Origin: Bradyrhizobium diazoefficiens
Lineage (GTDB): Bacteria > Pseudomonadota > Alphaproteobacteria > Rhizobiales > Xanthobacteraceae
DNA length: 64,000 nt
NCBI RefSeq assembly: GCF_016616235.1
Contig: NZ_CP067100.1
Location: 5,205,001-5,269,000, forward strand
Reading direction: 5' to 3'
Positions 9,611-49,717 of the stretch are shown here, piece by piece. The translations under genes were made by a program, and so were the position numbers. Below the pieces are notes generated by a model, which made no database searches, had not been told where the DNA came from, and saw only the letters and a program-made list of their open reading frames with translations. Within the stretch, counting starts at the first letter, position 1; every line of letters starts with the position of its first letter.

Positions 9611-9626
9611 TTTTAACAACTTGAAG

Positions 9627-34384: not shown

Positions 34385-35900
34385 CGATTTGCTCCATCCC
34401 CGTCGCGAGCGTCATGATGTCTTCCTGGTTCAGCGGCGCCGCCTCGCTTCGCCTGACCTCGCCCGCGATGTGCCCGCTACGCATCACGACGACGCGGTCG
34501 CAGATGCCGATGATCTCGGGCAGGTCGGACGAGATGACGAGAATCGCAGTGCCGGCCTTGGCGAGATTGTCGATGATCGAATAGATCTCGGATTTGGCGC
34601 CGACGTCGACGCCACGCGTCGGCTCGTCGAGGATCAGGACCTTCGGCGCGATGGCGAGAAGCCGCGACAGCAACACCTTCTGCTGGTTGCCGCCGGACAG
34701 GCTACCTGCGGCGACGCCGACATTGGCGGCGCGGATGCTGAGTCCCGCGAAGGCCCTGTCGGCGCGCGCGCGCGCCTTGTCGCGGTCCAGGAACCCGCCG
34801 AACTTCGCGTCCCGGCCAAGCACCGCGAGGTTGATGTTGTCCAGGCACGACATGTCCAGGAACAAGCCGAGCGCCTTCCTGTCTTCGGTCAGGTAGGCGA
34901 TGCCGGCCTCGAGCGCCTCACCCGGCGTGCGGATCTCGACCGGGCGTCCCTCCAGCTCGAGCCGACCCGAGGTTTTGGGCGCCGCCCCGATGATGAGATG
35001 CGCAAGCTCGGTGCGGCCCGCGCCGATCAGGCCGGCGAGGCCGACCACTTCGCCCGCATGCACGGTGAGCGAGCAGCCTTTGACACGCCGGCCGTCGGCC
35101 ATGTCGATCGCTGCGAGCACGGGATGTCCCCGCCCCGCCTCCGGATCGTGATCCTTCTTGTAGAACGAGGAGACGTCACGCCCGACCATCAAGCGGACGA
35201 TGGTGTCGGCGCGGATGTCCTGCTTGTCGAGCGCCCCGACCAGGCGGCCGTCGCGCAGCACCGTGACGCGGTCGCCGAGCGCGTAGACCTCGTCCATGCG
35301 ATGCGAGATGTAGATGATGGCAAGCCCCTCAGAGCGAAGCTGCCGGATCAGCGCGAACAGCCGCTCGCTCTCGGCGGCCGACAACGAGGTGGTCGGCTCG
35401 TCCATGATCAGGATTTTCGATCGCACGTGCAGCGCACGGGCGATCTCGACCAGTTGCCGCTGGCCCATGGAGAGGTGCGCCACCAGGGTCGATGGCAGGA
35501 AGTCCGCGCCCAGTCGCTTCAGGATGGGGCCGACGCCCTCGCGCATGGCGCCGCGCGCCAGCAAGCCCGAGCGCGACATCTCGCGGCCGAGATAGATATT
35601 CTCGGCAACACTGAGATTGGGAGCCAGCGACAATTCCTGATAAATGATGGAGATGCCCGCGGCGCGGCCGCCGAGCGGACCTTCGATCCGCACCGGCCTG
35701 CCCTCGATGCGGATCTCGCCGCCGGGATCGGGCCTGTAGGCGCCGGACAGGATCTTCATCAGCGTCGACTTGCCGGCGCCGTTCTCACCCATCAGGGCAT
35801 GAACTTCACCGGCATAGACGGTGAGGTCGACGGCACGCAGCGCCTTGATGCCAAAGAAGGATTTTGAGACCCCGCGCATCTCGAGGATCGGATCGTTCAT
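34377..35900 (-). CDS. CUT2-type sugar ABC transporter ATPase, tandem domains (RbsA/XylG-like)
   Basis: A 507-residue double ATPase. Domain 1: Walker [10 protein letters not shown] (about residues 40-48), signature [13 protein letters not shown], Walker B MDEPTTS. Domain 2: degenerate P-loop GLIGAGRTE, signature LSGGNQQK, then LDEPTRGVD. The start ATG 35900 has GGGAGG four bases upstream, so a longer N-terminus is unlikely. It lies 129 bp behind the xylulokinase gene, and a promoter of its own seems possible in that gap. Confidence 0.94.
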
Positions 35901-35966
35901 CGTGCCTCCCGGTGCACAATGCGTTTCCCACCCGCGTCTCAATCATTTTGTCAGCGCGGTTCACGC

Positions 35967-35995
35967 ATTAAACAAAAGGCCGCGGCACAGAGCAA
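35967..35995 (-). promoter_or_regulatory. Possible sigma-70-type promoter for the CUT2 transporter genes
   Basis: On the minus strand TTGCTC (35995-35990) and TTTAAT (35972-35967) are 17 bases apart; the -10 matches 5 of 6 consensus positions. It is 67 bases before the ATPase start codon in an AT-richer patch, so the transporter may be expressed apart from the kinase gene. Confidence 0.4.
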
Positions 35996-36029
35996 TACCG
36001 AACAGAGGGAAATGCAGCGTCGAGCGATA

Positions 36030-37475
36030 CTAGTGGCGCGGCCGATACAGTTCGCGCCATGCGGGAAGCCGTTCGGCATAGGCATCGACCAACCTGGCGT
36101 CGGGTTCGAACGTCTCGACGCGCTGCGGCCGGGTGCACACGTCGGCGACCGCCTCACCGGTGACAGCAAGCCGCCCCAATCTCGCCGCACCGAACGCGGC
36201 GCCTGTCTCACCGCCGGCAAAGCGATGGACGGGGACATTCAGCACGTTGGCCAGCACCGAGAGCCAGAACCCCGACCGCGAACCGCCGCCGATGACGTCG
36301 GCTTCCGCAATCGCAATGCCGGCATCCGCGAGCACGTCGCGGCAATCGGCAAGCGCGAAGGCAACGCCCTCGAGCACCGCCTGCACGATCATCCCGCGAT
36401 CGGTGCCGTGGCTCAAACCATCGAGCAGGCCGCGCGCGGCGGGATCGTCGTGCGGCGTCCGCTCACCCGCAAGATAAGGCAGGAAGCTCACCGGCGACGG
36501 CGCCTGCGGGCGAAATCCAAGTGGCGCCAATAGCTCGGCCTCGGTGACGCCGAACAGGCGCGCGGCCCAGGCGAGACAGGAGGCAGCCGAGAGGATCGCA
36601 CCGGCCTGAATCCACATGTCGGGAACGGCGTGACAGAATGTATGCACCGCGCGGTCCGGGTTGGCCGCGATCCTGCTGGTCGGCGCCAGCAAGGCACCCG
36701 AGGTTCCCAGCGACACGAACGCGCTTCCCGGCCGGATCGCGCCGATGCCGACGGCGCCCGCTGGATTGTCGCCGGCGCCGCCCGCGATCACCGGCCGCCT
36801 GGTCATCCCCCAGCGCTGCGCGAGCTCGCCGCGCAGTGTCGTTGCGGGCGCGCATCCCTCGACCAGGCGCGGCATGTGATCGCGCGACAGGCCGGTCGCC
36901 GCCAGCGCCGCATCCGACCAGTCCCGGCGCGCAGCGTCGAGCCACAGCGATCCCGATGCGTCCGAAACATCTTCGACGGCCTCGCCTGACAGCACCAGGC
37001 GCAAATAGGCCTTTGGCATCAGAACGAGTTTTGTCGCTGCAAAGATTTCAGGCTCGTGCGCCGCGATCCAGAGCAGTTTTGGCGCGGTGAATCCCGGCAT
37101 CGCCTTGTTGCCCGTCACCGTACGCAAGGCGGGCCAGCGCTGCTCCAGGATACGGCACTCCGCGGCCGCGCGTCCGTCGTTCCAGAGGATGCAGGGCCGC
37201 AGCGGCTTTGCGCTGGCATCGAGCAGCGTGGCACCGTGCATCTGGCCGGACAGTCCGATGCCTTCGACTGCCGCCAGCGCGCCAGGATGGCTCGCCTTCA
37301 GCGCGTCCAGCGTGGCGAAGGCCGCATCGATCCACTGCGCAGGGTCCTGCTCGGAATGGCCTGATTGCGGCGAGGCGGTCGCGAGCGGCCGGCTCTCGCT
37401 TGCAATCACGCGCTGGGCGCTATCGACAAGAACGGTCTTGACTGCCGAGGTGCCGAGATCGATGCCGAGATACAT
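36030..37475 (-). CDS. xylB: Xylulokinase (FGGY family)
   Basis: A 481-residue FGGY kinase, the usual length of XylB. Co-linear segments with known xylulokinases include MYLGIDLGTSAVKTVL, GIGLSGQMHGATLLD, RPCILWNDGRA, MPGFTAPKLLW, VSDASGSLWLD, FVSLGTSGALLAP, FLPYLAGERTPH and GGGSRSGFW. It phosphorylates D-xylulose to xylulose 5-phosphate for the pentose phosphate pathway. The gene starts 13 bp behind the LysR gene and precedes a CUT2 transporter. No xylose isomerase or pentitol dehydrogenase is in the window, so the substrate could be xylulose formed by enzymes elsewhere. Confidence 0.93.
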   Translation of the reverse strand: MYLGIDLGTSAVKTVLVDSAQRVIASESRPLATASPQSGHSEQDPAQWIDAAFATLDALKASHPGALAAVEGIGLSGQMHGATLLDASAKPLRPCILWNDGRAAAECRILEQRWPALRTVTGNKAMPGFTAPKLLWIAAHEPEIFAATKLVLMPKAYLRLVLSGEAVEDVSDASGSLWLDAARRDWSDAALAATGLSRDHMPRLVEGCAPATTLRGELAQRWGMTRRPVIAGGAGDNPAGAVGIGAIRPGSAFVSLGTSGALLAPTSRIAANPDRAVHTFCHAVPDMWIQAGAILSAASCLAWAARLFGVTEAELLAPLGFRPQAPSPVSFLPYLAGERTPHDDPAARGLLDGLSHGTDRGMIVQAVLEGVAFALADCRDVLADAGIAIAEADVIGGGSRSGFWLSVLANVLNVPVHRFAGGETGAAFGAARLGRLAVTGEAVADVCTRPQRVETFEPDARLVDAYAERLPAWRELYRPRH

Positions 37476-37488: not shown

Positions 37489-38412
37489 TCATTTCGCCGC
37501 GTCGATCCAGATCCCGGGCTCCGAATGCTCGCGGATGTGGGCGACCAGGAAGTCGGAAAAGACCCTGATCTTGGCGGGCAGCCTGACGCGGTTCTGATAG
37601 GCGATGTTCATGGTGAGCAGCGGCAGCTCCCAGCCGCTCAAGACAGGCACCAGCCGGCCGGCCGCGATATCGCTCTGCACGATGTAGAGCGGCTGGATCA
37701 GGATGCCGAGCCCGGCACGCGCCGCGCCGCAGATGATCTGGCCGTCATTGCTGTCGAGTGTCGGCGCGACCCGGATCGTCTGTGTCGTGCTGCCCTGGCT
37801 CAGCCGCAACGAATAGGGATCATTGGCGAGGTTGTAGATCAGCATGTTGTGGCGGGCGAGATCGGCAGGATGCTCGGGACGGCCGTGCTTCTCCAGATAG
37901 GACGGAGCCGCCGCGAGCACGCGGTGCATCTGGCCAATGCGGCGGACGATGATGTTGGAATCCGGCTCGTGCTCCCGCGTGCGGATCGCCACATCGATGC
38001 CGGCCTCGATGAAATCAAGATAGCGATTGGCGCTGATGATCTGCACGCTCAGATCGGGATAAAGCGCGCGGAAGGCCGGCAACATCGGCGCGAGATAGAT
38101 CATCGCGAAGGACAGCGAAGACGTCACGCGCAGCATGCCCTTCGGCGACAGCGCGCGGTCGGAGACCGCGTCCTCAGCTTCGGCGAGCTCGTTGAGCAGC
38201 GTGCTGCAGCGCTGCAACAGCTCCTGGCCTGCCTCGGTCAGCCATTGCCGGCGCGTGTTGCGCTCGATCAGCCGAACCGCAAGCCGCTCCTCCAGCGCGC
38301 TGAGATGGCGGCTGGCGGCCGCATTCGACATCCGCAGGATCTCGGCGGCCTTGGACAGACTGCCGAGCTCGGCGGTTCTGGAGAAGACTTCGAGTTGGAG
38401 CAGCCGGTCCAT
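37489..38412 (-). CDS. LysR-family transcriptional regulator
   Basis: A 307-residue regulator with the N-terminal winged helix-turn-helix (residues 1-60, SLSKAAEILRMSNAAASRHLSAL) and a LysR substrate domain (LRVTSSLSFAMIYLAPML, GAARAGLGILIQP). It is transcribed away from the hydroxyquinol operon, 107 bp apart, and towards xylB, 13 bp apart. By the usual rule for LysR proteins it should control the divergent operon and itself, so it may react to an aromatic intermediate; control of the kinase operon through read-through is also possible. Confidence 0.92.
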   Translation of the reverse strand: MDRLLQLEVFSRTAELGSLSKAAEILRMSNAAASRHLSALEERLAVRLIERNTRRQWLTEAGQELLQRCSTLLNELAEAEDAVSDRALSPKGMLRVTSSLSFAMIYLAPMLPAFRALYPDLSVQIISANRYLDFIEAGIDVAIRTREHEPDSNIIVRRIGQMHRVLAAAPSYLEKHGRPEHPADLARHNMLIYNLANDPYSLRLSQGSTTQTIRVAPTLDSNDGQIICGAARAGLGILIQPLYIVQSDIAAGRLVPVLSGWELPLLTMNIAYQNRVRLPAKIRVFSDFLVAHIREHSEPGIWIDAAK

Positions 38413-38519
38413 TTTTGCATAAACAGGAAAAGAGACTTACAAAGTTTGACCTTTATTTCCGATTTGCGCAAGGCAAAATGGCGCCAACAAAAGACAATGG
38501 CAGGCGAGGAAATAAGGAA
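38413..38519. promoter_or_regulatory. Divergent promoter region between the LysR gene and the hydroxyquinol operon
   Basis: 107 AT-rich bp. The dyad AAAG-TTTGAC-CTTT (38441-38454) is a candidate LysR contact. GAGGAAA at 38506-38512 is the ribosome binding site of the Dabb gene. Confidence 0.4.
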
Positions 38520-38843
38520 ATGTCGGGCCCGATCAGGCACATCGTGATGTGGCGGCTGCGCGGGGAAACCCCAGCGGAGCGCTCCGCCGCCCGGATCAAG
38601 CTCAAGACCCTGTTCGAGGGGCTCAAGGGCCGGATCGACGGCCTGACCCATATTGAGGTCGGCCTCGACGTTAGCGATGTCGATTACGCCTGCGACGTGG
38701 TGTTGTTCTCCGAGTTCACCAGCCAGGCGGCGCTCAGCGCCTATGCCACTCACCCGGAGCACCTGCGCGTCCGCGAGGCACTGGGCGACTTGCGGATCGG
38801 GCGCTTCCAGGTCGATTATCCCATCAAAGAGACCGGCGCATGA
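38520..38843 (+). CDS. Dabb (stress-responsive alpha/beta-barrel) family protein
   Basis: A 107-residue single-domain protein of the dimeric alpha/beta-barrel family. It opens with IRHIVMWRLR, continues with LKTLFEGLKGRIDGLTHIEVGLDV, and ends with the pattern YATHPEHLRVREALG, a Dabb signature. Such proteins act as small enzymes or binding proteins of aromatic metabolism and stress. I chose ATG 38520 with GAGGAAA eight bases upstream. It is the first gene of an eleven-gene operon; its stop overlaps the next start as ATGA. Its role in the pathway is unknown. Confidence 0.88.
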   Translation: MSGPIRHIVMWRLRGETPAERSAARIKLKTLFEGLKGRIDGLTHIEVGLDVSDVDYACDVVLFSEFTSQAALSAYATHPEHLRVREALGDLRIGRFQVDYPIKETGA

Positions 38844-39919
38844 TCGGTTCGTTCACCTTTGAAAACCTGCCCTGCCGCGTCGTGTTCGGCAGCGGAACGC
38901 TGGCTAGCGCCAAGGCCGAGGTCGAGCGGCTCGGCGGCAAGCGCGCGCTGGTGTTGACGACGCCGCAGCAGGAGGCACAGGGCAAGAGCCTTGGTGCCGC
39001 GCTTGGTCCGGTCTATGCAGACATTTTTCCGGGCGCCACGATGCACACGCCGGTCGAGGTCACCGAACGCGCGCTCGCGGCGATGAAGGCGTGCCAAGCC
39101 GACTGCGTTGTCTCGCTCGGCGGCGGCTCCACCACCGGCCTCGGCAAGGCGCTGGCCTTGCGCACCGGCGTCAACCAGCTCTGCATTCCCACCACCTATG
39201 CCGGCTCGGAGATGACCCCGATCGTCGGCCAGACCGAGAACGGCCTGAAGACGACGGTGCGCGACACAGCGGTGCTGCCCGAGACCGTGATCTACGATGT
39301 CGACCTCACCATCAGATTGCCGGTAGGCCTCGCCGCGACATCGGGCATCAACGCGATCGCCCATGCGGCGGAAGCGCTTTACGCCCGCGACACCAATCCG
39401 GTGACATCGCTGATGGCGGAGGAAGGCATCCGCGCCCTCGCACGCGCCCTGCCCGCCATTGCCGCCAGCAGCGACGACCGCGAGGCCCGCACCGAAGCGC
39501 TCTATGGCGCCTGGCTGTGCGGCGTCTGCCTCGGCACCGTCGGCATGGCGCTGCATCACAAGCTCTGCCACACGCTCGGCGGCACCTTCGACCTGCCGCA
39601 TGCGGAGACCCACACCATCGTGCTGCCGCACGCACTGGCCTACAATGCGCCGGCCGTGCCGGATGCGATGGCGCGCATCGCGCGCGCGATCGGCGCGGCC
39701 GATGCATCGCAAGGACTTTTCGACCTTGCAAAGGGACTGGGCGCGAAGCTGGCGCTGCGCGATGTCGGCATGCCCGAGAGCGGCATCGACAAGGCCGCGG
39801 ATCTCGCCGTCACCAACGCCTACTGGAACCCGCGCCCGCTGGACCGCAATGCCATCCGCGACCTGATCGCACGCGCCTGGGCCGGCGAGCCGCCCGGCAC
39901 CGTCACAGCGGCGGCGTGA
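38840..39919 (+). CDS. Maleylacetate reductase (iron-containing alcohol dehydrogenase family)
   Basis: A 359-residue enzyme that reduces maleylacetate to 3-oxoadipate with NAD(P)H, the step after hydroxyquinol ring cleavage. The pattern separates it from ordinary iron alcohol dehydrogenases: VSLGGGSTTGLGKALAL for the nucleotide, then PTTYAGSEMTPIVGQTE, and the metal-site histidines in INAIAHAAEALYA and HHKLCHTLGGTFDLPHAETH. It starts inside the stop of the Dabb gene (ATGA). The matching hydroxyquinol dioxygenase is three genes further on in the operon. Confidence 0.94.
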   Translation: MIGSFTFENLPCRVVFGSGTLASAKAEVERLGGKRALVLTTPQQEAQGKSLGAALGPVYADIFPGATMHTPVEVTERALAAMKACQADCVVSLGGGSTTGLGKALALRTGVNQLCIPTTYAGSEMTPIVGQTENGLKTTVRDTAVLPETVIYDVDLTIRLPVGLAATSGINAIAHAAEALYARDTNPVTSLMAEEGIRALARALPAIAASSDDREARTEALYGAWLCGVCLGTVGMALHHKLCHTLGGTFDLPHAETHTIVLPHALAYNAPAVPDAMARIARAIGAADASQGLFDLAKGLGAKLALRDVGMPESGIDKAADLAVTNAYWNPRPLDRNAIRDLIARAWAGEPPGTVTAAA

Positions 39920-39923
39920 CACG

Positions 39924-41297
39924 ATGCGGCGCACGCTGATCAGATCGGCCACCGTCATCAGCATGGATGACGCGATCGGCGACTTCGAGGCTGGCGACGT
40001 GCTGGTCGAGGGCGACCGCATCGCCGAGGTGCGGCCGTCGATCGAGCTCGGCAGCGGCGCGTCCGACACCGAGATCGTCGATGGCAAAGACCGCATCGTC
40101 ATTCCCGGCCTGATCAACGCCCACATGCACACTTGGCAGACGGGCTTGCGCGGCTATGCCGCGAACTGGACGCTGCTGGAATATTTCCGCCGCATGCATG
40201 CGGGCCTCGCGACCGTGTTCCGGCCCGAGGACATTCACATCGCGACCCTCGTCGGCGCGCTGAACCAGATCAATTACGGCACGACCACCCTGGTGGACTG
40301 GTGCCACAACAACCCGACGCCTGATCACACCGACGCCGCGGTCCGCGGCCTGATCGAGAGCGGCATCCGCGCCGCCTTCTTCCATGGCTCGCCCAAGCCA
40401 GAGCCGAAACCGGGCGAGCCGCATTTCTCGGAAGTGCCGCATCCACGCCGCGAGGTCGAACGGCTGCTGGCGGGACCCCTCGCCGACCGCGACGGCCTCG
40501 TCACACTTGGGCTTGCGATTCTGGGGCCACACTATTCGACGCTCGACGTCGCTATGCACGATTTCCGCCTGGCCCGTGAGCTCAACCTGATCGCCTCGAT
40601 GCATCAGGGCGGAGGTCCGGCCAAGACGCCCGGCGGCTGGGAGAAGCTGATCGAGGCCGGCCTGGTCGGCGCCGGCATCAACATCGTCCATGGCAACGAC
40701 CTGCCCGACGATCTCCTGGACCGGATGGTCGATCTCGGCGTGTCGTTCTCGGTGACGCCGGAGAACGAGATGATCCAGGGCCACGGTTTCCCGATCACTG
40801 GACGGCTGCTCAAGCGCGGCGTGCGGCCGACCATTGGTATCGACCTTGAATCCGTGCTGGCCGGCGATCTTCTCTCCGTCGCGCGCGTCGCGCTGTCGAT
40901 GCAGCGGGCGCTCGACAATGCGGAGCAGCGCAAGACCAATGGCACCATTCCCGCGACGACCACGATCCCCGTGCGCGAGGCGCTGCGCTGGATCACCACG
41001 GAGGGCGCGCGCATGCTCGGCCGCGGACATCAGATCGGCTCGCTGACGCCGGGCAAGCTTGCCGACCTTGTCATCATCAACGCCAGCGATCTCAACCTCT
41101 TTCCGGTGCACGATCCCGTCGCCACCGTGGTGATGCAGACGAGCCTTGCCAATATCGAGGCGGTGATGATCGGCGGCACCTGGAAGAAGCGGAACGGCAG
41201 GCTGCTGGTCGAGGGGCTGGACGCGAAGAAGGAGCTGCTGGCCCAATCCGGCCGGCGGCTGGTGCAGGACATCGAGCGACAGGGACGCGCCGCCTGA
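39924..41297 (+). CDS. Amidohydrolase, ATZ/TRZ (cytosine deaminase-like) family
   Basis: A 457-residue metal-dependent hydrolase. The N-terminal small beta-domain precedes the HxH motif in INAHMHTWQTG (about residue 70), then come the His of SMHQGG, the His of INIVHGNDLP and the Asp of IGIDLES, the usual set of one metal site. Family members deaminate or dechlorinate nitrogen heterocycles such as guanine, cytosine or triazines, or open small lactams. In a hydroxyquinol operon it is unexpected and suggests a nitrogen-bearing or cyclic-amide precursor. It follows the reductase gene by 4 bp. No exact substrate can be named. Confidence 0.9.
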   Translation: MRRTLIRSATVISMDDAIGDFEAGDVLVEGDRIAEVRPSIELGSGASDTEIVDGKDRIVIPGLINAHMHTWQTGLRGYAANWTLLEYFRRMHAGLATVFRPEDIHIATLVGALNQINYGTTTLVDWCHNNPTPDHTDAAVRGLIESGIRAAFFHGSPKPEPKPGEPHFSEVPHPRREVERLLAGPLADRDGLVTLGLAILGPHYSTLDVAMHDFRLARELNLIASMHQGGGPAKTPGGWEKLIEAGLVGAGINIVHGNDLPDDLLDRMVDLGVSFSVTPENEMIQGHGFPITGRLLKRGVRPTIGIDLESVLAGDLLSVARVALSMQRALDNAEQRKTNGTIPATTTIPVREALRWITTEGARMLGRGHQIGSLTPGKLADLVIINASDLNLFPVHDPVATVVMQTSLANIEAVMIGGTWKKRNGRLLVEGLDAKKELLAQSGRRLVQDIERQGRAA

Positions 41298-41317
41298 CGC
41301 GGCCAAGGACAACAACA

Positions 41318-42220
41318 ATGACGGACAGCGCAAAGAACGTTGCTTTCATCGGAATCGGCAAGATGGGCCTGCCGATGTCAATGCTCGTCGCCAAGGCCGG
41401 ATACGCCGTCACCGCGTTCGACCAGAACTCGGCGCGGACCGACGAGGCGCGCGCGCAAGGCATCGCGATTGCCGCTTCGCCGGCCGAGGCGGCGAACGGC
41501 AAGGCCGTTGTCATCACCTCCCTACCCGATGATGTCGCTCTGCGAGGCGCGCTGCTCGGCCCGACCGGCCTCATCGCCGCGATGGCTGTCGGATCTGTGC
41601 TGATCGAAACCAGCACCGTCAGCGTTGAGGCTTCCACCGAGGTTGCGGCCGCCGCACAGGCGCGCGGCATCGCCTATCTGCGTTCGCCGGTCTCCGGCAA
41701 TGCCAGCATCGTCCACACCGGCGCGCTGACCTGCTTCGTCTCGGGGCCGAAGGACGCCTTCGAGACCGCAAAACCGCTGTTCGCTGCCTTCACCCGCGCC
41801 CAGACCTATCTCGGTCCGGCGGAGGAAGCACGCTACGCAAAGCTTTCGGTCAATCTGATGATCGCGGTGTCGGCCGCGATGATGGCGGAGAGCCTGGCGC
41901 TGGCGCGCAAGGGCGGCATCGCCTGGCAGGACATTTTGAAGGTGCTCGACGACAGCGCGGTGGCGTCCCCGATGGTGAAGTACAAGACTGCACCGCTGCG
42001 GACCCGCGACTTCGAGTCGACCTTCTCCTGCAAACAGATGGCCAAGGATCTTGATCTCATCCTCGGTGCCGGCCACGCCGTCGGCGTCCCGCTTCAGCTC
42101 GCCGCGCAAGTGCGCGAGACCTACGGCTCGCTGGTCGCACAGGGCGACGGCGAGGCCGACTTCATCGCGACCGTCAAGCACCTGGAACGTCTGTCCGGAC
42201 TTGGCGAACCCAAACTCTGA
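41318..42220 (+). CDS. NAD(P)-dependent beta-hydroxyacid dehydrogenase (HIBADH family)
   Basis: A 300-residue dehydrogenase. FIGIGKMGLPMS (residues 6-17) is the Rossmann loop, the substrate loop SPVSGNASIVHTGALTC is in its normal place, and KLSVNLMIA carries the catalytic lysine. Relatives act on 3-hydroxyisobutyrate, tartronate semialdehyde or related 3-hydroxy acids. AAGGA lies upstream of ATG 41318. In this operon it may handle a side product of the pathway, for example a C3 or C4 hydroxy acid. Confidence 0.92.
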   Translation: MTDSAKNVAFIGIGKMGLPMSMLVAKAGYAVTAFDQNSARTDEARAQGIAIAASPAEAANGKAVVITSLPDDVALRGALLGPTGLIAAMAVGSVLIETSTVSVEASTEVAAAAQARGIAYLRSPVSGNASIVHTGALTCFVSGPKDAFETAKPLFAAFTRAQTYLGPAEEARYAKLSVNLMIAVSAAMMAESLALARKGGIAWQDILKVLDDSAVASPMVKYKTAPLRTRDFESTFSCKQMAKDLDLILGAGHAVGVPLQLAAQVRETYGSLVAQGDGEADFIATVKHLERLSGLGEPKL

Positions 42221-42234
42221 TCGCGGAGATACAG

Positions 42235-43119
42235 ATGCGTAACTTCAACGAGAACACGATCACCGACGCAGTGCTGGAGCGGATCGCGGGCGCAACCGAT
42301 CCTCGGATCAAGCAGATCAGCGAGGCACTGGTGCGTCACCTGCACGCCTTCGTCCGCGAGGTGCGGCCGACCCAGAAGGAATGGGAGTACGGCATCGATT
42401 TCCTGACCCGCACCGGCCACATGTGCGACGACAAACGCCAGGAGTTTATCCTGCTGTCGGACACGCTCGGCGTCTCCATGCTGGTCGACGCGATCAACCA
42501 TCCAGTGCCGGAGGGCGCGACTGAGACCACCGTGCTCGGCCCGTTCTTCGTCCAAGCCGCACCGGAGAAGGACAGCGGCGCCGATATCTCCGGCCCGATG
42601 GAAGGCGATCCGATGCTGGTCACCGGCTCGGTCTCGACCGTCGACGGCAAGCCGCTCGTCGGCGCGATTGTCGACGTCTGGCACTCCGACGGCAACGGCT
42701 ATTACGACGTGCAGCAGCTCGACGACATCGGCGATCTCGCGATGCGCGCGCGCTTCCACACCGGTGCCGACGGCCGCTTCCATTTCTGGTCGATCAAGCC
42801 GGCCGCCTATCCGATTCCGCATGACGGTCCGGTCGGCGAGATGCTTGAGGCGCAGGGCCGCCATCCCTGGCGCCCGGCGCATGTGCATTTCATGATCTCG
42901 GCGCCCGGCTTCGAGCAGCTGGTGACGCACGTGTTCGTCGCAGGGGACCGGTATCTCGACAGCGACGTGGTGTTCGGCGTCAAGGACAGCCTGATCCGCG
43001 AATTTGTGCGCTGCCCGCCCGGCCGTGCGCCGGATGGTCGCATGGTCGACAGCGAGTATTTTCACCTGAACTACGATTTCGGCCTGAAGCAGCTCGCGAG
43101 TAGCGCAAGAGCCGCCTAA
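42235..43119 (+). CDS. Hydroxyquinol 1,2-dioxygenase (intradiol ring-cleaving dioxygenase)
   Basis: A 294-residue non-heme Fe(III) enzyme that opens hydroxyquinol (1,2,4-trihydroxybenzene) to maleylacetate. The N-terminal helical dimerisation part spans roughly residues 1-105. The catalytic part shows GAIVDVWHSDGNGYYD with a Tyr ligand at 156 or 157, AAYPIP with Tyr192, and HPWRPAHVHFM with His216 and His218. These are the four iron ligands of the family. Maleylacetate reductase in the same operon supports hydroxyquinol instead of catechol as substrate. GGAG precedes ATG 42235. Confidence 0.93.
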   Translation: MRNFNENTITDAVLERIAGATDPRIKQISEALVRHLHAFVREVRPTQKEWEYGIDFLTRTGHMCDDKRQEFILLSDTLGVSMLVDAINHPVPEGATETTVLGPFFVQAAPEKDSGADISGPMEGDPMLVTGSVSTVDGKPLVGAIVDVWHSDGNGYYDVQQLDDIGDLAMRARFHTGADGRFHFWSIKPAAYPIPHDGPVGEMLEAQGRHPWRPAHVHFMISAPGFEQLVTHVFVAGDRYLDSDVVFGVKDSLIREFVRCPPGRAPDGRMVDSEYFHLNYDFGLKQLASSARAA

Positions 43120-43174
43120 GCTTGAGCAGCGGGCCGACAAGAGTCCGCTAACAGGGAGCAGACGGGAGCTAGGG

Positions 43175-44569
43175 ATGGGACCGCGAGTGAGCACCAGCAT
43201 ATTGGCCGATCGCCTCACCGGCATGATCGGCCCGCGCGCGAGCGTCGCGCGCGGCGTGCTCGATCAGCATGGGCAGAGCGAGTCGCACTATCGCAACCTG
43301 CCGCCCGACATCGTGGTCTTCCCAGAAACCACGCAGGAGGTCGCGGAGATCGTCAAGCTCTGCGCGGGCGCGAACATGCCGATCGTCCCGTTCGGCGCCG
43401 GAACCTCGCTCGAAGGCAACGCGGCCGCGGTCGCGGGCGGCGTCTGCTTCGACTTCGCGCGCATGAACAAGGTGCTGTCCGTGCACGACAGCGACATGGA
43501 TGTCGTGGTGCAGCCGGGCATCACCCGCAAGCAGCTCAATGCGGAGCTGCGCAATACCGGCCTGTTCTTTCCGATCGATCCCGGCGCCGACGCCTCGATC
43601 GGCGGCATGACCTCGACGCGCGCCTCCGGCACCATGGCGGTGCGCTACGGCACCATGAAGGACAATGTGATGGCGCTGGAGGTGGTGCTTGCCGACGGCC
43701 GCGTCATCCGCACCGCGAGGCGCGCCCGCAAATCGGCCGCCGGTTATGATTTGACGCGGATGTTCGTCGGTGCGGAAGGAACGCTCGGCATCATCACCGA
43801 GATCACCCTGAAGCTGCATCCGGTGCCACAAGCCATCTCAGCGGCGGTCTGCAGCTTCGACACCCTGCATGATGCCGTCGACACCGCGATCTCCGTGATC
43901 CAGTCCGCGATTCCCGTGGCCCGCATCGAGCTGCTCGATGACGTCATGATGCGCGGCATCAACGCCTACGCCAAGCTCGGCTACCGCGAGGCGCCCACTT
44001 TGTTCTTCGAATTCCATGGCTCCGAGACCTCCGTCGCCGAGCAGGCCGAGGCCGCCGAGGCGATCGCCGCCGACCATGGCGGCCACGGCTTTGCCTGGGC
44101 CAAGGCGCCGGAAGACCGCAGCCGGCTCTGGCACGCACGCGACAACACGCTCTATGCCGGCCTCGGCCTCCGCCCCGGCGCGCGTGCGGTCATCACCGAC
44201 GTCTGCGTGCCGATCTCGCGGCTGGCCGAATGCCTCACCGAGACGCGGCGCGATGCGGACGCGCACGGCTTTACCGCGCCGATCGTCGGCCATGTCGGCG
44301 ACGGCAATTTTCACATGCTGATCCTGATCGATCCTTCGAAGCCAGAGGAGGCCGAAAGCGCCAAGGCGCTGCAAGCCCGCATGGTCGCCCGTGCCATCGC
44401 CATGGACGGCACCTGCACCGGCGAGCACGGCATCGGTCTCGGCAAGATCGACTATCTCGCGGATGAACTCGGCGAGGCCGTCGATGTGATGCGACAGGTC
44501 AAGACCGCGCTCGATCCTGATGGGCTGATGAACCCCGGAAAGATCTTTGCAAAGGGAGCCAAGGCATGA
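43175..44569 (+). CDS. FAD-binding oxidase, GlcD/D-lactate dehydrogenase type
   Basis: A 464-residue flavoprotein of the FAD-linked oxidase family. The PCMH-type FAD domain shows PFGAGTSLEGNAAAVAGGV and DPGADASIGGMTSTRASGT; the C-terminal domain has GHVGDGNFH, GEHGIGLGK and MNPGKIF, all diagnostic of D-2-hydroxyacid dehydrogenases such as GlcD or Dld. It would oxidise a D-2-hydroxy acid to the keto acid. GGGAG stands before ATG 43175, and its stop overlaps the ATPase start (ATGA). It acts alone here: there is no GlcE or GlcF partner gene. Confidence 0.92.
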   Translation: MGPRVSTSILADRLTGMIGPRASVARGVLDQHGQSESHYRNLPPDIVVFPETTQEVAEIVKLCAGANMPIVPFGAGTSLEGNAAAVAGGVCFDFARMNKVLSVHDSDMDVVVQPGITRKQLNAELRNTGLFFPIDPGADASIGGMTSTRASGTMAVRYGTMKDNVMALEVVLADGRVIRTARRARKSAAGYDLTRMFVGAEGTLGIITEITLKLHPVPQAISAAVCSFDTLHDAVDTAISVIQSAIPVARIELLDDVMMRGINAYAKLGYREAPTLFFEFHGSETSVAEQAEAAEAIAADHGGHGFAWAKAPEDRSRLWHARDNTLYAGLGLRPGARAVITDVCVPISRLAECLTETRRDADAHGFTAPIVGHVGDGNFHMLILIDPSKPEEAESAKALQARMVARAIAMDGTCTGEHGIGLGKIDYLADELGEAVDVMRQVKTALDPDGLMNPGKIFAKGAKA

Positions 44570-46089
44570 GCGATGCGCTCCCGATCGAGGTCACCTCGCC
44601 GACGCCGCTGCTGGAACTGCGCGGCATCAGCAAGGAGTTTCCCGGCGTCAAGGCGCTGGACGACGTGTCGTTCGCCGTCTATCCCGGCGAAGTCCACATG
44701 TTGCTCGGCGAGAACGGTGCCGGCAAGTCGAGTCTCATGAAGGTACTGTGCGGCGCCTATAGCGCCGACGCGGGCGAATTCTACTATGAGGGCAACAAGG
44801 TCGCGATCTCCTCGACCGCGGATGCGCAGAAGCTCGGCATTGCCGTGATCTTCCAGGAATTCTCGCTAGTCCCCTATCTCGATATTGCCCAGAACATCTT
44901 CCTCGGCCGGGAGCCGAAGGGCCGCATCCCCGGCACCATCGACCGCCGCAAGATCCTGGCCGACGCCAAGCGCGTGCTCGACACGATCGGCTTCGACATC
45001 GATCCCTCCACCATCGTCGACAAGCTGGGCGTGGCGCAGCAGCAGATGGTCGAGATCGCGAAGGCGATCAGCCAGAACGCCCGCATCCTCGTCATGGACG
45101 AGCCGACCGCGGCGCTGTCCGACCGCGAGACCGAGCTCCTGTTCGCGCTGATCGCGCGGCTGAAGGCCGATGGCGTGTCGATCGTCTATATTTCCCATCG
45201 CATGGCCGAGGTGTTCGCGCTCGGCGACCGCATCACGGTGCTGCGCGACGGCCGCCGCATCGACGGCGTCAAGCCGGCCGATGTCACGCCAGACCAGCTG
45301 GTGCGCATGATGGTCGGCCGCAATGTCGACATGACCTATCCGCGCCATTTTGCCGACAAGCCCGGCGAGCTGCTGCTAGAGGTCAAGGGCCTGACTGCGG
45401 CGACGGGCATCTCCGACATCAACATCGAGGTGCGCCGCGGCGAGATCGTCGGCCTGTGCGGCTTGGTCGGCTCCGGCCGCAGCGAGGTCGCGCGCGCCAT
45501 CTTCGGCGCCGATCCCGTGACATCAGGCGAGATCATCTTCGACGGCAGGACCATGTCCGGCCAGCCTGACCTCGCCGCCCGCCGCGGCATCGCGTTGATC
45601 CCGGAGAGCCGCAAGAGCGAGGGCCTCGCGCTGCTGCGCTCCGTCGGCGACAATCTGGTGGTGTCGGCTCTTCGAAAGCTGTTCCCGAGCGGGCTGTTCG
45701 ACCAGCGCAGCGCGCAGCGCACGTCCGACGGCTTGATCCGGCAGCTCCGGATTGCGACGCCCAGCGCGCGGCAGACCGTCGGCCTGCTCTCGGGCGGCAA
45801 CCAACAGAAGGTCGTGATCGGCAAATGGCTGGCGGCCGGCTCAAAACTCTTCATCTTCGACGAGCCGACGCGGGGCATCGACATCGGGGCCAAGTCCGAG
45901 ATTTTTGCGCTGATCGACCGTCTCGTCGCGGAAGGCGCGGCCGCCCTGATGATCTCGTCCGAGCAGGTCGAGATCTGCCATGTCTGCGACCGCGCTTATG
46001 TGATGCGGGAGGGGCGCATCGCCGGACATTTGACCCGCAGCGAACTGACCGAGGAGAACATCGTGCGACTGGGGATGCATCATGCGTGA
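44566..46089 (+). CDS. CUT2-type ABC transporter ATPase, tandem domains
   Basis: A 507-residue double ATPase of the RbsA type. Domain 1: GENGAGKSS (about residues 48-56), a signature reduced to LGVAQQQMVEIAK, Walker B MDEPTAA. Domain 2: GLVGSGRSE in place of a normal P-loop, [17 protein letters not shown]. Its start overlaps the stop of the oxidase gene (ATGA), which binds the transporter to the catabolic genes in one operon. It energises the two permeases that follow. Sugar-type importers of this kind also carry purines, cyclitols and other small ring compounds in some bacteria. Confidence 0.94.
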   Translation: MSDALPIEVTSPTPLLELRGISKEFPGVKALDDVSFAVYPGEVHMLLGENGAGKSSLMKVLCGAYSADAGEFYYEGNKVAISSTADAQKLGIAVIFQEFSLVPYLDIAQNIFLGREPKGRIPGTIDRRKILADAKRVLDTIGFDIDPSTIVDKLGVAQQQMVEIAKAISQNARILVMDEPTAALSDRETELLFALIARLKADGVSIVYISHRMAEVFALGDRITVLRDGRRIDGVKPADVTPDQLVRMMVGRNVDMTYPRHFADKPGELLLEVKGLTAATGISDINIEVRRGEIVGLCGLVGSGRSEVARAIFGADPVTSGEIIFDGRTMSGQPDLAARRGIALIPESRKSEGLALLRSVGDNLVVSALRKLFPSGLFDQRSAQRTSDGLIRQLRIATPSARQTVGLLSGGNQQKVVIGKWLAAGSKLFIFDEPTRGIDIGAKSEIFALIDRLVAEGAAALMISSEQVEICHVCDRAYVMREGRIAGHLTRSELTEENIVRLGMHHA

Positions 46090-47032
46090 GGCCGCCGTCG
46101 TCGCTCAACCGAATCCGCTGCAACGCATTCCCGGCGTTGCCATCGTGCTGGTGCTGCTGATCGCGCTGTTCAGCGCGATCGCGCCCGGCTTCCTGTCGGT
46201 TGCCAACCTCTCCAACGTGCTGGTGCAGTCGACGATTCTCACCATGCTGGCGCTGCCGATGACCTTGATCATCATGACAGAGGGGCTGGACCTGTCGATG
46301 GGCGCGGTGCTGACGCTGACCTCGCTCTGCGTCGCCATCGTCTCGCTCGCGACCAAGTCGATGCTGCTGGGCCTTGGCGCCGGCCTTGTGGTCGGCGCGG
46401 CCTTCGGCACGGTCAACGGCTGGCTGGTCGCGATCCTTGGCATCCCGCCCTTCGTCGCGACGCTCGGCACGCTCGGCATGGCGCAGGGCCTGTCGCTGAT
46501 CGTCAGCGACGGCCAGAGCGTGGTCGGCATCCCCCACAGCGTGCGCGACATCTATTCGGCGACGCTGCTCGGCGTGCCGGTGCCGATCGTGATGGCGCTG
46601 GTGACTTACGCAGCGTTCCATGGCCTGCTCTATCACACCCGCTTCGGCACCTACATCTTCGCGCTCGGAGGAAATCGTGAGGCGCTGCGCTATGCCGGCC
46701 TGTCGCCGAACAAGCTGCTGATCGCGGTCTACGCCATCGGCGGCGCCATGGCGGGCATCGCGGGCCTATTGATGACTGCGCGGATGAATTCCGGTCATCC
46801 GACTGCCGGCCTTGGCCTCGAATTCGACGCGATCGCCGCCGTCGCCGTCGGCGGCACCTCGTTCGAGCGCGGCAATGGGTGGCTGCTCGGCACGCTGCTC
46901 GGCGTGATCTCCGTCGGCGTGCTGCGCAACGGGCTGAACCTGATCTCGCTGCCGTCCTCGGTGCAAGTCGCAAGCGTCGGCGTCCTCGTCATCGTTGCCC
47001 TGTTCCTCGACGGCCTCAGGAGCCGCGCATGA
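46082..47032 (+). CDS. CUT2-type ABC transporter permease (first of two)
   Basis: A 316-residue membrane protein with about nine hydrophobic segments. Hallmarks: MTEGLDLSMGAVLTLTSL, LGIPPFVATLGTLGMAQG, ALGGNREALRYAGL and GGTSFERGNGWLLGTLLG. It overlaps the ATPase gene by 8 bp and the second permease gene by 4 bp (ATGA). Most CUT2 importers use a homodimer of one permease; here two different genes follow each other, so the channel is probably a heterodimer. Confidence 0.92.
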   Translation: MREAAVVAQPNPLQRIPGVAIVLVLLIALFSAIAPGFLSVANLSNVLVQSTILTMLALPMTLIIMTEGLDLSMGAVLTLTSLCVAIVSLATKSMLLGLGAGLVVGAAFGTVNGWLVAILGIPPFVATLGTLGMAQGLSLIVSDGQSVVGIPHSVRDIYSATLLGVPVPIVMALVTYAAFHGLLYHTRFGTYIFALGGNREALRYAGLSPNKLLIAVYAIGGAMAGIAGLLMTARMNSGHPTAGLGLEFDAIAAVAVGGTSFERGNGWLLGTLLGVISVGVLRNGLNLISLPSSVQVASVGVLVIVALFLDGLRSRA

Positions 47033-48006
47033 CCGACATCACCAAAGAGACGATGATGCCGCCCCGCTCGTTCCTGTCGCAGGACGCGATCCAGCTATTC
47101 TATCGCTTGCTCGCCGCGCTGCTGATCTGCGCGGTGCTCGCCGTGTTCAGCGACTCCTTCCTGAGCCTCGGCAACATTCTTAACGTGCTCCGGCAGGCAA
47201 GCCTGACCTTCTTTATCGCCTCCGGCCTGACGCTGGTGGTGCTCACGGCCGGGCTTGATCTGTCCGTCGGCGCCAATGTCGCGCTGTCGGCCTGTATCGC
47301 CGGCACGGTGATCCACAAGACCGGTTCGCCGGCGCTCGGCATTCTCACCGGGCTCGCCTGTGGCGGCATCGTCGGCCTCCTCAACGGCATCATGGTTACG
47401 GCGCTCCGCATCCCCTCCTTTATCGCCACCTACGGCATGCTCTGGGTGCTGAACGGCCTGACCTATTGGTACATGGCCGGCGAGACGCTGCACGGCTTCC
47501 CGGCAGGCTTCCGCCAGATCGGCAGCGGCTATCTGTTCGGCCTGCCGATCCCGGTCTATCTGCTGCTGGTGTTTCTCGGGATCGGAACACTGTTCGCGCA
47601 GCGCACGATCTGGGGCCAGGAGATCTATGCGATCGGCGCCAATCCGGTCGCCGCCCGCCTCTCCGGCATTCCCGTCGCGCGGCGCCTGCTGCTGGTCTAC
47701 GCGGTCTCAGGCATCATGGCGGGGCTCGCCTCGATCATCTTCCTGTCGCGGCTCAATTCGGCCGAAGCCGATATCGGCGAGAGCCTGACCTTGCCGGCGA
47801 TCGCGGCCGTGCTGATCGGCGGCACCTCGCTGTTCGGCGGCGTCGGCACCGTGTTCGGCACCTTCATCGGCGCGCTGATCCTGACGCTGGTGCTCAACGG
47901 CATGAATCTGTTGTCGGTCAGCGCCAACTGGCAGCCGCTGGTGACAGGCATCATCGTCATTCTCGCGGTCTGGCTCGACATGAAGACCCGCCGCCGCGCG
48001 CAATGA
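47029..48006 (+). CDS. CUT2-type ABC transporter permease (second of two)
   Basis: A 325-residue membrane protein. Hallmarks: VLTAGLDLSVGANVALSA, RIPSFIATYGMLWVLNG, AIGANPVAARLSGIPV and GGTSLFGGVGTVFGTFIGA. I chose ATG 47029, which overlaps the stop of the first permease gene as ATGA; sequence upstream in this frame belongs to the other gene. Its only moderate similarity to the first permease suggests an old duplication rather than a recent one. Confidence 0.92.
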   Translation: MTDITKETMMPPRSFLSQDAIQLFYRLLAALLICAVLAVFSDSFLSLGNILNVLRQASLTFFIASGLTLVVLTAGLDLSVGANVALSACIAGTVIHKTGSPALGILTGLACGGIVGLLNGIMVTALRIPSFIATYGMLWVLNGLTYWYMAGETLHGFPAGFRQIGSGYLFGLPIPVYLLLVFLGIGTLFAQRTIWGQEIYAIGANPVAARLSGIPVARRLLLVYAVSGIMAGLASIIFLSRLNSAEADIGESLTLPAIAAVLIGGTSLFGGVGTVFGTFIGALILTLVLNGMNLLSVSANWQPLVTGIIVILAVWLDMKTRRRAQ

Positions 48007-48047
48007 GTTCTAGAGTTTCAACAAGCAAAATGAGGGATGGAGGCAAC

Positions 48048-49022
48048 ATGAAACAGACACTGGGCTATCTCGCGCTGCCGCTGCTGATGGCGGCCGCGTT
48101 CACCACCGAAGTGCGTGCCGACGGCGAGACCATCGCCGTCTTCACCAAGAACCAGACCAACCCGTTCTTTCAGACGGTGCGGGTCGGCGCCGACAACATG
48201 GCAAAATCGCTGAACGGGAAGACGCTGCAATACATCCCAACCAAGCCGGACTCGATCCCCGAGCAGCTCAGCCAGATCGAGGACGTCGTCGTCAAGAAGC
48301 CGAGCGCGATCGTGTTCACGCCGGTCGATTACAAGGCGATGGTGCCGGGGGTCGAGAAGATCAACGAGGCCAAGATCCCGGTCGTCAACATCACCGACCG
48401 CTCGGCCGGCGGCAAGTTCCTCTCCTTCGTCGGCGCCGACGATTACAGCCTCGGGCTCGAGACCGCGCGCTTCCTGCTCAAGACGCTTGGCGGCAAGGGC
48501 AACATCGTCATCATCGAGGGCGTCAAGGGCTCGCTGACCAATGTCGACCGCGTCCGCGGCTTCAACGACGCGATCAAGGAAAATCCAGGCGCCAAGCTCT
48601 TGGCCTCACAGCCCGGCAACTACCAGCGGCTGCAGGCGCTCCAGGTGATGGAGAACCTGATGCAGTCGAATGCGCAGATCGACGGCGTGCTCGCTGCGAA
48701 CGATGCCATGGCGGTCGGCGCGATCGAGGCGCTCGACGGCGCGAACCGGAAGGCGCAAGTGATCGGCATCAACGGCACCAAGGAGGCGATCGACGCGATC
48801 AAGTCCGGCAAGCTGCTCGCGAGCGGCGACTACAACGGATTTGCCCAAGGCTGCCTCGGCACCATGATGGCGATCCGCGCCTTGCGCAACCAGCCGGTCA
48901 TCAGCGAGATCGTGCTGAAGCCGACCGTCATCACCAAGGACAATTTTGGGCCGTTCGACGTGCCGCTTGAGCAGCGCACCTGCCCGACCTTCGAGGACGC
49001 CGGCAAGCTCGGCGCAAAATAA
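48048..49022 (+). CDS. CUT2-type ABC transporter substrate-binding protein
   Basis: A 324-residue periplasmic receptor with signal peptide 1-23 (ending TEVRADGE). Typical features: IAVFTKNQTNPFFQTVRVGAD, EQLSQIEDVVVKKPSAIVFTP, VVNITDRSAGGKFLSFVGAD and IDGVLAANDAMAVGAIEALD. GGAGG at 48038-48042 fixes ATG 48048. It completes the importer of the hydroxyquinol operon. Its ligand should be the pathway substrate, and binding studies on this protein are the direct way to find it. Confidence 0.93.
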   Translation: MKQTLGYLALPLLMAAAFTTEVRADGETIAVFTKNQTNPFFQTVRVGADNMAKSLNGKTLQYIPTKPDSIPEQLSQIEDVVVKKPSAIVFTPVDYKAMVPGVEKINEAKIPVVNITDRSAGGKFLSFVGADDYSLGLETARFLLKTLGGKGNIVIIEGVKGSLTNVDRVRGFNDAIKENPGAKLLASQPGNYQRLQALQVMENLMQSNAQIDGVLAANDAMAVGAIEALDGANRKAQVIGINGTKEAIDAIKSGKLLASGDYNGFAQGCLGTMMAIRALRNQPVISEIVLKPTVITKDNFGPFDVPLEQRTCPTFEDAGKLGAK

Positions 49023-49086
49023 GTCCTTCCATCACGACAATTACGGACGGCCGTATTAGCGGCCGTCCCAAGAAGACGGAGACACC

Positions 49087-49374
49087 ATGCTGTTCGCCAT
49101 CCATGCCGTCGACCGCGCCGGCGCGCTGCCGACCCGGCTCGCCAGTTACGATGCACATAAAGCCTTCCTGAGCGACACCTCGCCCTTCGGCGTCAAGATC
49201 GTGATGTCGGGGCCGCTCGTCGCCGACGACGGCGCAACCATGATCGGCAGCCTGTTCCTGATTGAGGCGCCCGGCCGCGCCGAGGTGGAAGCTTTCAATC
49301 GCGCCGATCCCTTTGCCGCCGCCGGCATCTGGGACAAGGTCACGATCACCGGCTTCCTGCGCCGCCAGGGCTAA
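49087..49374 (+). CDS. YciI-family protein
   Basis: A 95-residue ferredoxin-like alpha/beta-barrel protein. FAIHAVDR, RLASYDAHKAFL with the conserved His-Asp environment, SGPLVADDG, GSLFLIEA and the closing FNRADPFAAAGIWDKVTI make the family clear. YciI-like proteins are small enzymes or isomerases linked to aromatic catabolism (as in chloromuconolactone chemistry). GGAG stands before ATG 49087. It is the last gene of the operon and may act on the ring-cleavage product, though this is inference. Confidence 0.88.
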   Translation: MLFAIHAVDRAGALPTRLASYDAHKAFLSDTSPFGVKIVMSGPLVADDGATMIGSLFLIEAPGRAEVEAFNRADPFAAAGIWDKVTITGFLRRQG

Positions 49375-49483
49375 GGGCGGCTAAACTAAAAATGCGAAAA
49401 CGCCTCCGTTCCGTGATTGCGAAGCGCGAGGCCGGCGATCTCGGCCCCGCTCACCTCGTGTTCGCCCAAGTGAGGGCCTAGCT

Positions 49484-49717
49484 TCAATCCGCGAACGGAC
49501 CGCTTCTGCATTTCGAATATTGCTGGTCGCATTTCTGCATGCATTTCGTGCCGGTGCATTTTGGGCTGTTGCAGCTCAGCCACTTCCGGTCACACAGGGA
49601 TGCGCGGGCAGAAGCCGGTCCGGTCCACCACGCGAGCAGAACGATCGCGGAGCATGCGAAAGCCATCAGACGAGGGCGCCTGACGCGGATGGTGGTCGTT
49701 GCGGTTGCAATTGTCAC
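49484..49717 (-). CDS. Small secreted six-cysteine protein of unknown function
   Basis: A 77-residue protein starting at GTG 49717 with GAGGAGACC directly upstream. Residues 1-38 are a signal peptide with a basic start (IRVRRPRL), a hydrophobic core (FACSAIVLLAWW) and a cut after ASA or ARA. The mature part of about 39 residues has six cysteines spaced C-x6-C-x4-C-x4-C-x3-C-x6-C, enough for three disulfides. I do not recognise the family. It is flanked by the YciI gene on the opposite strand and the GFA gene on the same strand, with no obvious functional tie. Confidence 0.7.
   Translation of the reverse strand: MTIATATTTIRVRRPRLMAFACSAIVLLAWWTGPASARASLCDRKWLSCNSPKCTGTKCMQKCDQQYSKCRSGPFAD

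Follow-up and report, generated by a model that had tools for sequence, protein, structure and literature searches.

An eleven-gene operon of Bradyrhizobium diazoefficiens that joins a hydroxyquinol lower pathway to a sugar-type importer and may serve the breakdown of a cyclitol-like compound

A window of 64,000 nucleotides from the genome of Bradyrhizobium diazoefficiens (NCBI RefSeq assembly GCF_016616235.1, contig NZ_CP067100.1, positions 5,205,001 to 5,269,000 of the forward strand) was analysed for a block of eleven genes at 38520-49374, in which a hydroxyquinol 1,2-dioxygenase (HQD) and a maleylacetate reductase (MAR) are encoded together with an amidohydrolase (AMH) and a complete sugar-type importer of the CUT2 class. 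Coordinates are counted from the first base of the window, and related loci are given by their L numbers. All eleven reading frames lie on the plus strand, and each was found by direct inspection of the sequence to have an ATG start and a stop codon. The gaps between successive genes, in bases, are -4 (Dabb/MAR), 4 (MAR/AMH), 20 (AMH/HIB), 14 (HIB/HQD), 55 (HQD/FAD protein), -4 (FAD protein/ATPase), -8 (ATPase/permease), -4 (permease/permease), 41 (permease/receptor), and 64 (receptor/YCII), so that neighbouring genes overlap at 4 of the 10 junctions, in three cases by 4 bases. Every gene was placed in a family by Pfam or NCBIfam, with most scores below the NCBIfam equivalog cutoffs. A preliminary description made from the sequence alone had reported eleven tightly packed genes; the frames, strand, and spacing hold, and its family names were upheld with two corrections, which concern the FAD protein and the label of deaminase. 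The features of the locus are as follows.

37489..38412, minus strand: LysR-type regulator, divergent from the operon (LysR-family NCBIfam matches, e.g. YafC at 197.6 bits, equivalog cutoff 470)
38413..38519, no strand: 107-bp divergent promoter region with a conserved element, probably the LysR operator (alignment of 71 intergenic regions)
38520..38843, plus strand: Dabb (stress-responsive A/B barrel) protein (PF07876, 84 bits; top PDB match 3fmb, of unknown function)
38840..39919, plus strand: maleylacetate reductase (MAR), iron-type alcohol dehydrogenase family (PF25137/PF00465; annotated same-locus relatives)
39924..41297, plus strand: amidohydrolase (AMH), ATZ/TRZ fold, PRK08204 subfamily, without the HxxE glutamate
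41318..42220, plus strand: beta-hydroxyacid dehydrogenase, HIBADH-like (HIB) (PF03446/PF14833; top PDB match 3pdu)
42235..43119, plus strand: hydroxyquinol 1,2-dioxygenase (HQD) (PF00775/PF04444; top PDB match 1tmx, 310.9 bits)
43175..44569, plus strand: FAD-linked D-2-hydroxyacid dehydrogenase, D-lactate dehydrogenase-like (PF01565/PF02913; top PDB match 8jdc, 540.8 bits)
44566..46089, plus strand: CUT2 importer ATPase (PF00005; AraG/RbsA-type NCBIfam matches below the equivalog cutoffs)
46082..47032, plus strand: CUT2 permease 1 (PF02653; ribose-permease-type matches below the cutoffs)
47029..48006, plus strand: CUT2 permease 2 (ribose-permease-type NCBIfam matches below the cutoffs; NCBIfam scan only)
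48048..49022, plus strand: CUT2 periplasmic receptor (PF13407; top PDB match 2ioy)
49023..49086, plus strand: strong hairpin in the receptor/YCII gap (-23.9 kcal/mol, z -4.2, 0 of 200 shuffles equally stable)
49087..49374, plus strand: YCII protein, TftG-like (PF03795; TftG 4lbh, E 9.6e-10)

The dioxygenase was matched most closely by the structures of hydroxyquinol 1,2-dioxygenase (1tmx, 310.9 bits) and 6-chlorohydroxyquinol dioxygenase (8r2x, 308.8 bits), and catechol dioxygenase structures scored at most 132 bits, far below both. The reductase carries the domains of the iron-type alcohol dehydrogenases, and its same-locus relatives are annotated as maleylacetate reductase; since no maleylacetate reductase model was among its NCBIfam matches, the name was assigned from the family and these annotated relatives. 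In the known route, hydroxyquinol is converted to maleylacetate by the dioxygenase and then to 3-oxoadipate by the reductase. Judged from family and nearest structures, the two proteins very probably form such a lower half, as the preliminary description had proposed. Elsewhere the genome encodes a pcaF-like thiolase (66% identity), a CoA-transferase A-like protein (51%), and two further hydroxyquinol dioxygenases (52% and 51% identity). One of these dioxygenase genes (L140) has an FAD aromatic hydroxylase gene and a Liv-type receptor gene as neighbours, an arrangement that the window operon is without; because the other (L139) has neither such a hydroxylase nor MAR in 20 kb, the contrast rests on one of the two extra genes. 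No flavin or other hydroxylase yielding hydroxyquinol was detected among the eleven genes with Pfam and NCBIfam, and a CUT2 importer stands where an importer of aromatics might be sought; both absences, remarked on earlier, hold within the operon.

Conservation was assessed by scanning genome contigs with the amidohydrolase, which returned 423 relatives. Loci were compared for the 80 best, which belong mostly to one genus and are not independent. Presence of a gene was defined as at least 50% identity, and the order test covered the eleven genes on one strand, with the position of the LysR gene outside it. In 67 of the 80 loci, from several genera, the LysR gene was present together with all eleven others, whose order and shared strand were unchanged, so that the set is kept together where the preliminary description would have been contradicted by its dispersal. 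Single genes were present in 80 (amidohydrolase), 78 (HIBADH-like protein, ATPase, and YCII), 77 (dioxygenase, each permease, and receptor), 76 (MAR and FAD protein), 71 (Dabb), and 70 (LysR) loci. Some absences, those in L083 and of the downstream genes in L082, are explained by the contig ending there. The FAD gene is missing from two otherwise complete loci (L071 and L075), the dioxygenase from L048, and both LysR and Dabb from L076-L081; in L076 and L077 a stop falls inside the aligned dioxygenase stretch. Only Dabb, MAR, the amidohydrolase, and YCII remain in L074, and the amidohydrolase alone in L085. Among the same-genus genomes listed, a spread sample, 7 of 10 carry the amidohydrolase at E <=1e-150. 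With the own genome counted, the genomes that carry it number 2 of 385 in the class and 8 of 398 in the phylum at E 1e-150, and 27 of 297 in the order at E 1e-100.

The LysR gene is divergent from the eleven-gene block, with 107 bases between them. The consensus of the 71 aligned intergenic regions contains a conserved element, GGAAAAGAGACTTAC followed after about 10 bases by CTTTATTTCC, which forms an imperfect dyad GGAAA/TTTCC and is probably the operator of the LysR regulator. Matches to sigma-70-like (one, on the minus strand) and terminator-like (two) patterns in 38300-49700 were not above those in shuffled sequence. The hairpin at 49023-49086 was more stable than all of its 200 shuffles and may set the relative level of YCII mRNA.

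The importer is complete, with a double-domain ATPase, two BPD_transp_2 permeases (the second recognised through NCBIfam only), and a Peripla_BP_4 receptor, which bears out what had been described. The closest structures to the receptor are sugar receptors, ribose- and allose-type among them. Receptor residues were compared by alignment with those taken to line the pocket for ribose: N13, F16, R141, and N190 presumably correspond to the identical N38, F41, R168, and N218, F15 to F or Y, F164 to Y192, and D215 to N242, while Q235 would stand opposite Y262, and D89 and R90 would meet D117 and R118 only with a one-residue gap. Such a pocket would fit a polyhydroxylated ligand other than ribose. 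A rhizopine receptor was considered and set aside as a weak match (54.6 bits against a cutoff of 420). The predicted receptor model, with a mean pLDDT of 37.6, was too poor and was not used.

The amidohydrolase matched NF006056 at 614.7 bits, and its NCBI subfamily, PRK08204, is named only 'hypothetical protein'. Its fold is of the ATZ/TRZ type, with deaminases and triazine hydrolases among the nearest structures, and its predicted model (mean pLDDT 74.6) matched only the ATZ/TRZ family and wider amidohydrolase kin. The metal ligands HxH, H, H, and D are present and conserved; the glutamate of the HxxE motif of deaminases is replaced (HQGG, aligned position G230), and this glycine is kept in 94 of 95 matches at >=60% identity, the remaining match not covering the position. 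Of the earlier label 'ATZ/TRZ-type, deaminase-like', the fold and metal ligands stand, and the deaminase role is doubted because the glutamate is absent.

Relatives of the amidohydrolase were also observed in other company. In L167 (7878-12993) and L168 three tandem paralogues (46, 42, and 40% identity in L167) are followed by HQD, a short-chain dehydrogenase/reductase (SDR), and a beta-keto acid cleavage enzyme. Relatives with no HQD in the stretch (L121, L123, L124, L085, L161-L166, L169, and L170) were viewed for hints of substrate, and the most telling was L161, where at 2094-12148 a 54% identical amidohydrolase adjoins a CUT2 importer (41-50% identical to that of the window) and an adenine-deaminase-like gene, with no match to HQD within 17 kb. 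From the contexts of L167 and L168 on one side and L161 on the other, the amidohydrolase is tied separately to HQD and to a sugar-type importer. In L085 (4032-6327), an Acidobacteria metagenome bin, a 69% identical amidohydrolase occurs with another HIBADH-like gene and with genes that, judged by eye from their N-termini, resemble those of sugar or polysaccharide synthesis.

The nearest structure to the FAD protein is mitochondrial D-lactate dehydrogenase (8jdc, 540.8 bits). Glycolate oxidase GlcD was rejected (347.5 bits, NCBIfam cutoff 567.9), and the earlier label 'GlcD-like oxidase' was replaced accordingly, for a gene that two otherwise complete relatives do without. For the HIBADH-like protein the family given earlier was retained (PF03446/PF14833); its nearest structures are 3pdu and 3pef, and it falls below every NCBIfam cutoff listed. 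The YCII protein has a single PDB match at E <=0.001, to the 5-chlorohydroxyquinol dehydrochlorinase TftG (4lbh, E 9.6e-10), and its residues D9, H24, and D74 are conserved in all 95 matches from the loci fetched. TftG requires a conserved His-Asp dyad, according to PMC7641849. In three loci of the window type YCII is followed by a gene for an FMN reductase, annotated as such in the Bosea loci L118 and L119 and recognised by similarity in L084; such an enzyme would suit the reduction of a hydroxybenzoquinone.

Matches were found in 29 plasmid records for the amidohydrolase, 44 for YCII, and 13 for HIB. Eight plasmid loci were opened from the YCII and HIB matches (L126-L130 and L132-L134); they were hand-picked and give no estimate of frequency. 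In six of them (L126, L128, L129, L130, L133, and L134) polyol-type genes accompany HQD, MAR, YCII, and a sugar-type importer, namely those for dehydrogenases of the Gfo/Idh, zinc, butanediol, and other types in L126 (Sinorhizobium), L130 (Rhizobium), and L133 (Loktanella); butanediol-type and SDR enzymes in L129 (Paraburkholderia); and SDRs, one sugar-phosphate isomerase/epimerase, and one TIM-barrel protein in L128 and L134 (R. leguminosarum). The importer of L130 is represented by a permease at the edge of the stretch, and the importer type of L126 and L130 was inferred from L133. No flavin or Rieske ring hydroxylase appears in the gene tables of these six loci, which are incomplete; a small putative quinol monooxygenase is listed for L133, and an FAD-dependent oxidoreductase lies at the edge of L129. 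L132 (Agrobacterium) resembles these loci and carries 3-oxoadipate genes, with no CUT2 importer in the stretch, and L127 (Cupriavidus) is of the amidohydrolase type. HQD occurs in five (L118, L119, L120, L122, and L127) of the eight amidohydrolase-bearing plasmid loci opened (L118-L124 and L127). L120 (Skermanella) combines the amidohydrolase, HIB, HQD, and MAR with a more distant CUT2-type importer (30-45%), and L122 (Paraburkholderia D15) and L127 carry a porin and a GMC oxidoreductase. On plasmid pRme41a/pRM41A of S. meliloti Rm41 (L135, 90975-125844), an HQD 64% identical to that of the window was observed in a region with inositol-type dehydrogenases, an aminotransferase, sugar-phosphate isomerase/epimerases, a 3-dehydroquinate dehydratase, and formamidase-type and 3-oxoadipate genes. 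Use of calystegines is attributed to this plasmid (PMC3556828).

From the order, 20 HQD regions were fetched out of 91 genomes matched, hand-picked and mostly higher-scoring matches outside the genus. One (L144) is a window-type operon in which the FAD gene is missing and YCII is followed by a Gfo/Idh/MocA gene; isolated CUT2-like components occur in L151 and L160, and the stretches of L143, L155, and L160 are short. In a tree of HQD (46 rows, of which 8, including L132 and L155, form the polyol group), the window protein clusters with those of Bosea, Xanthobacter, and L142, adjacent to the S. meliloti Rm41 type, and the amidohydrolase-type label requires five changes. A single common origin of all CUT2/HQD loci is not supported by this tree.

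On the upstream side of LysR, at 32298-37475 on the minus strand, another CUT2 importer is encoded together with a xylulokinase that scores above the TIGR01312 cutoff, and the two adjoin each other in many of the Bradyrhizobium relatives listed. The downstream neighbours scanned were an open reading frame without a match and then an oligopeptide-type ATPase.

The reading favoured here, held tentatively and close to evenly balanced, is that LysR controls a catabolic operon whose substrate is a ring compound with several hydroxyls, probably cyclitol-like, which would be converted to hydroxyquinol by oxidation and dehydration. A cyclitol upper half is about as tenable, and the polyol-linked plasmid loci and the several ribose-pocket residues kept in the receptor are consistent with it. 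Also in favour of the reading are the lower half itself, the conservation of the set, the lack of a ring hydroxylase in the operon, the Gfo/Idh/MocA gene of L144, the CUT2-type importer of L120, the similarity of YCII to an enzyme whose substrate is a hydroxyquinol, the pcaF-like thiolase of the genome, and the known acid-catalysed dehydration of an inosose to a tetrahydroxybenzene (PMC11467972). In this scheme the ring polyol would be imported by the CUT2 system, one or more ring hydroxyls would be oxidised to ketones, with the two dehydrogenases as candidates for the redox steps, and water or another leaving group would be eliminated until the ring was aromatic, giving hydroxyquinol directly or via hydroxybenzoquinone. 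The amidohydrolase, YCII, and Dabb proteins would be candidates for hydrolysis, elimination, and tautomerisation. HQD would then open the ring to maleylacetate and MAR would yield 3-oxoadipate, as their families support, and a thiolase encoded elsewhere would complete the route. By our own calculation, a deoxyinosose (C6H10O5) less two molecules of water gives C6H6O3, the formula of hydroxyquinol, and an inosose would give tetrahydroxybenzene, after which one more elimination and a reduction would be needed. A more specific version is rather unlikely as a whole: an imported non-aromatic ring polyol would be aromatised to hydroxyquinol through successive oxidations and eliminations, with the glutamate-less amidohydrolase stripping ring substituents in the manner of AtzA-C on triazines and the TftG-like YCII protein performing the last elimination. 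Of the substrate guess in the preliminary description, the cyclitol-like part is strengthened by the polyol-type dehydrogenases that accompany the same lower half and importer in relatives, and the nitrogen-bearing part is weakened by the absence of the HxxE glutamate.

Several observations weigh against a cyclitol substrate. Acid-catalysed dehydration of inosose is reported to give 1,2,3,4-tetrahydroxybenzene (PMC11467972), an isomer that does not lead simply to hydroxyquinol. There is no inositol-type or SDR dehydrogenase among the eleven genes, the FAD protein resembles D-lactate dehydrogenase, and the amidohydrolase has no explained role in the scheme and occurs in L121, L123, and L124 where no HQD is seen. 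A full CUT2 importer was present in only one of the 20 HQD regions from the order, the window-type L144. YCII, HIB, and MAR are found with a Liv-type importer in L142, and in L148, a locus that has a TRAP importer and a subunit of the molybdenum-hydroxylase type, about 8 kb separate YCII from HQD, so these proteins are not specific to cyclitols. Plasmid receptors at E <=1e-60 were found in only 3 records, two of them Bosea window-type operons and the third a Rhizobium with no HQD in the stretch. Finally, 7 of the 8 polyol-group rows of the HQD tree lie on a separate branch (94/85) and the eighth, L129, pairs with L122; because the dioxygenases are mostly on a different branch, the polyol-linked arrangement is to be taken as an analogy and not as one lineage.

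It is unlikely that the substrate is already aromatic, such as a conjugate, perhaps a glycoside, that contains a hydroxyquinol-type ring and would be imported through its sugar part, the hydroxylase or glycosidase being encoded elsewhere. Such a substrate would agree with the presence of the small genes in other HQD loci whose importers are of the Liv or TRAP type, which are common for acids and aromatics, and with the FAD aromatic hydroxylase beside one of the two other HQD genes of the genome; however, neither the operon nor the conserved set contains a glycosidase, demethylase, or hydroxylase, and the scanned neighbours supply a second CUT2 importer and xylulokinase upstream and a matchless reading frame and oligopeptide-type ATPase downstream.

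A nitrogen-bearing ring (an aminocyclitol or a sugar-like alkaloid) from which the amidohydrolase would remove the nitrogen is no more probable than an aromatic substrate. The replacement of HxxE by HQGG, with G230 kept in 94 of 95 matches, argues against it, even though the fold is ATZ/TRZ and the nearest structures are deaminases and triazine hydrolases. AtzA, AtzB, and AtzC strip their ring stepwise, and the three tandem amidohydrolases before HQD in L167 and L168 are reminiscent of them. The seven-membered carbon ring of calystegines does not lead simply to hydroxyquinol. In favour of a nitrogen-bearing ring, the 64% identical HQD on pRme41a lies in a region with inositol-type dehydrogenases, an aminotransferase, and formamidase-type genes, and calystegine use is assigned to that plasmid (PMC3556828).

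Still less probable is a composite operon, in which the CUT2 importer would take up some ordinary sugar or polyol while the hydroxyquinol genes would act on another substrate. The lower module is found with several importer types, and the genes immediately upstream encode another CUT2 importer and a xylulokinase; against this stand the tight packing, the common order in 67 of 80 loci from several genera, and the window-related CUT2 importer that adjoins the amidohydrolase without HQD in L161. That the substrate is a halogenated precursor of hydroxyquinol, like that of the 2,4,5-trichlorophenoxyacetate (2,4,5-T) route, was judged very improbable: the YCII protein resembles TftG, but no chlorophenol hydroxylase was detected in the operon with Pfam or NCBIfam, and an operon that is widespread within the genus and has a sugar-type importer would fit a natural compound better.

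Compared with known systems, the operon shares HQD and MAR, leading to 3-oxoadipate, with the hydroxyquinol lower pathway, and differs in its CUT2 importer, amidohydrolase, YCII, Dabb, and two dehydrogenases and in having no hydroxylase or aromatic importer. With the TftG branch of the 2,4,5-T pathway it shares YCII, HQD, and MAR, and D9, H24, and D74 align; unlike that branch it has a sugar-type importer and no chlorophenol monooxygenase in the operon. The polyol-linked plasmid loci resemble it in HQD, MAR, YCII, and a sugar-type importer, and in HIB for L126, L129, L130, and L133, whereas they have their own Gfo/Idh, zinc-type, SDR, or butanediol-type dehydrogenases or a sugar-phosphate isomerase/epimerase, no match to an amidohydrolase of the window kind, and an HQD mostly on a different branch. 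Catabolism of myo-inositol (iol) is alike in principle, with CUT2-type import and oxidation of ring hydroxyls; its ring is opened hydrolytically with no aromatic intermediate, and no iol-type genes were found among the eleven with Pfam or NCBIfam. No described pathway with this gene set was seen among the open-licence papers listed, which is weak evidence of absence.

Should the cyclitol reading be true, a common soil and nodule genus would aromatise a sugar-like ring compound before degrading it, the reverse of what the importer hints at, and cyclitols would be degraded through an aromatic intermediate. Functions would then be available for the PRK08204 amidohydrolase subfamily and for the YCII and Dabb proteins, and the question is narrowed to one operon, one receptor, and one regulator.

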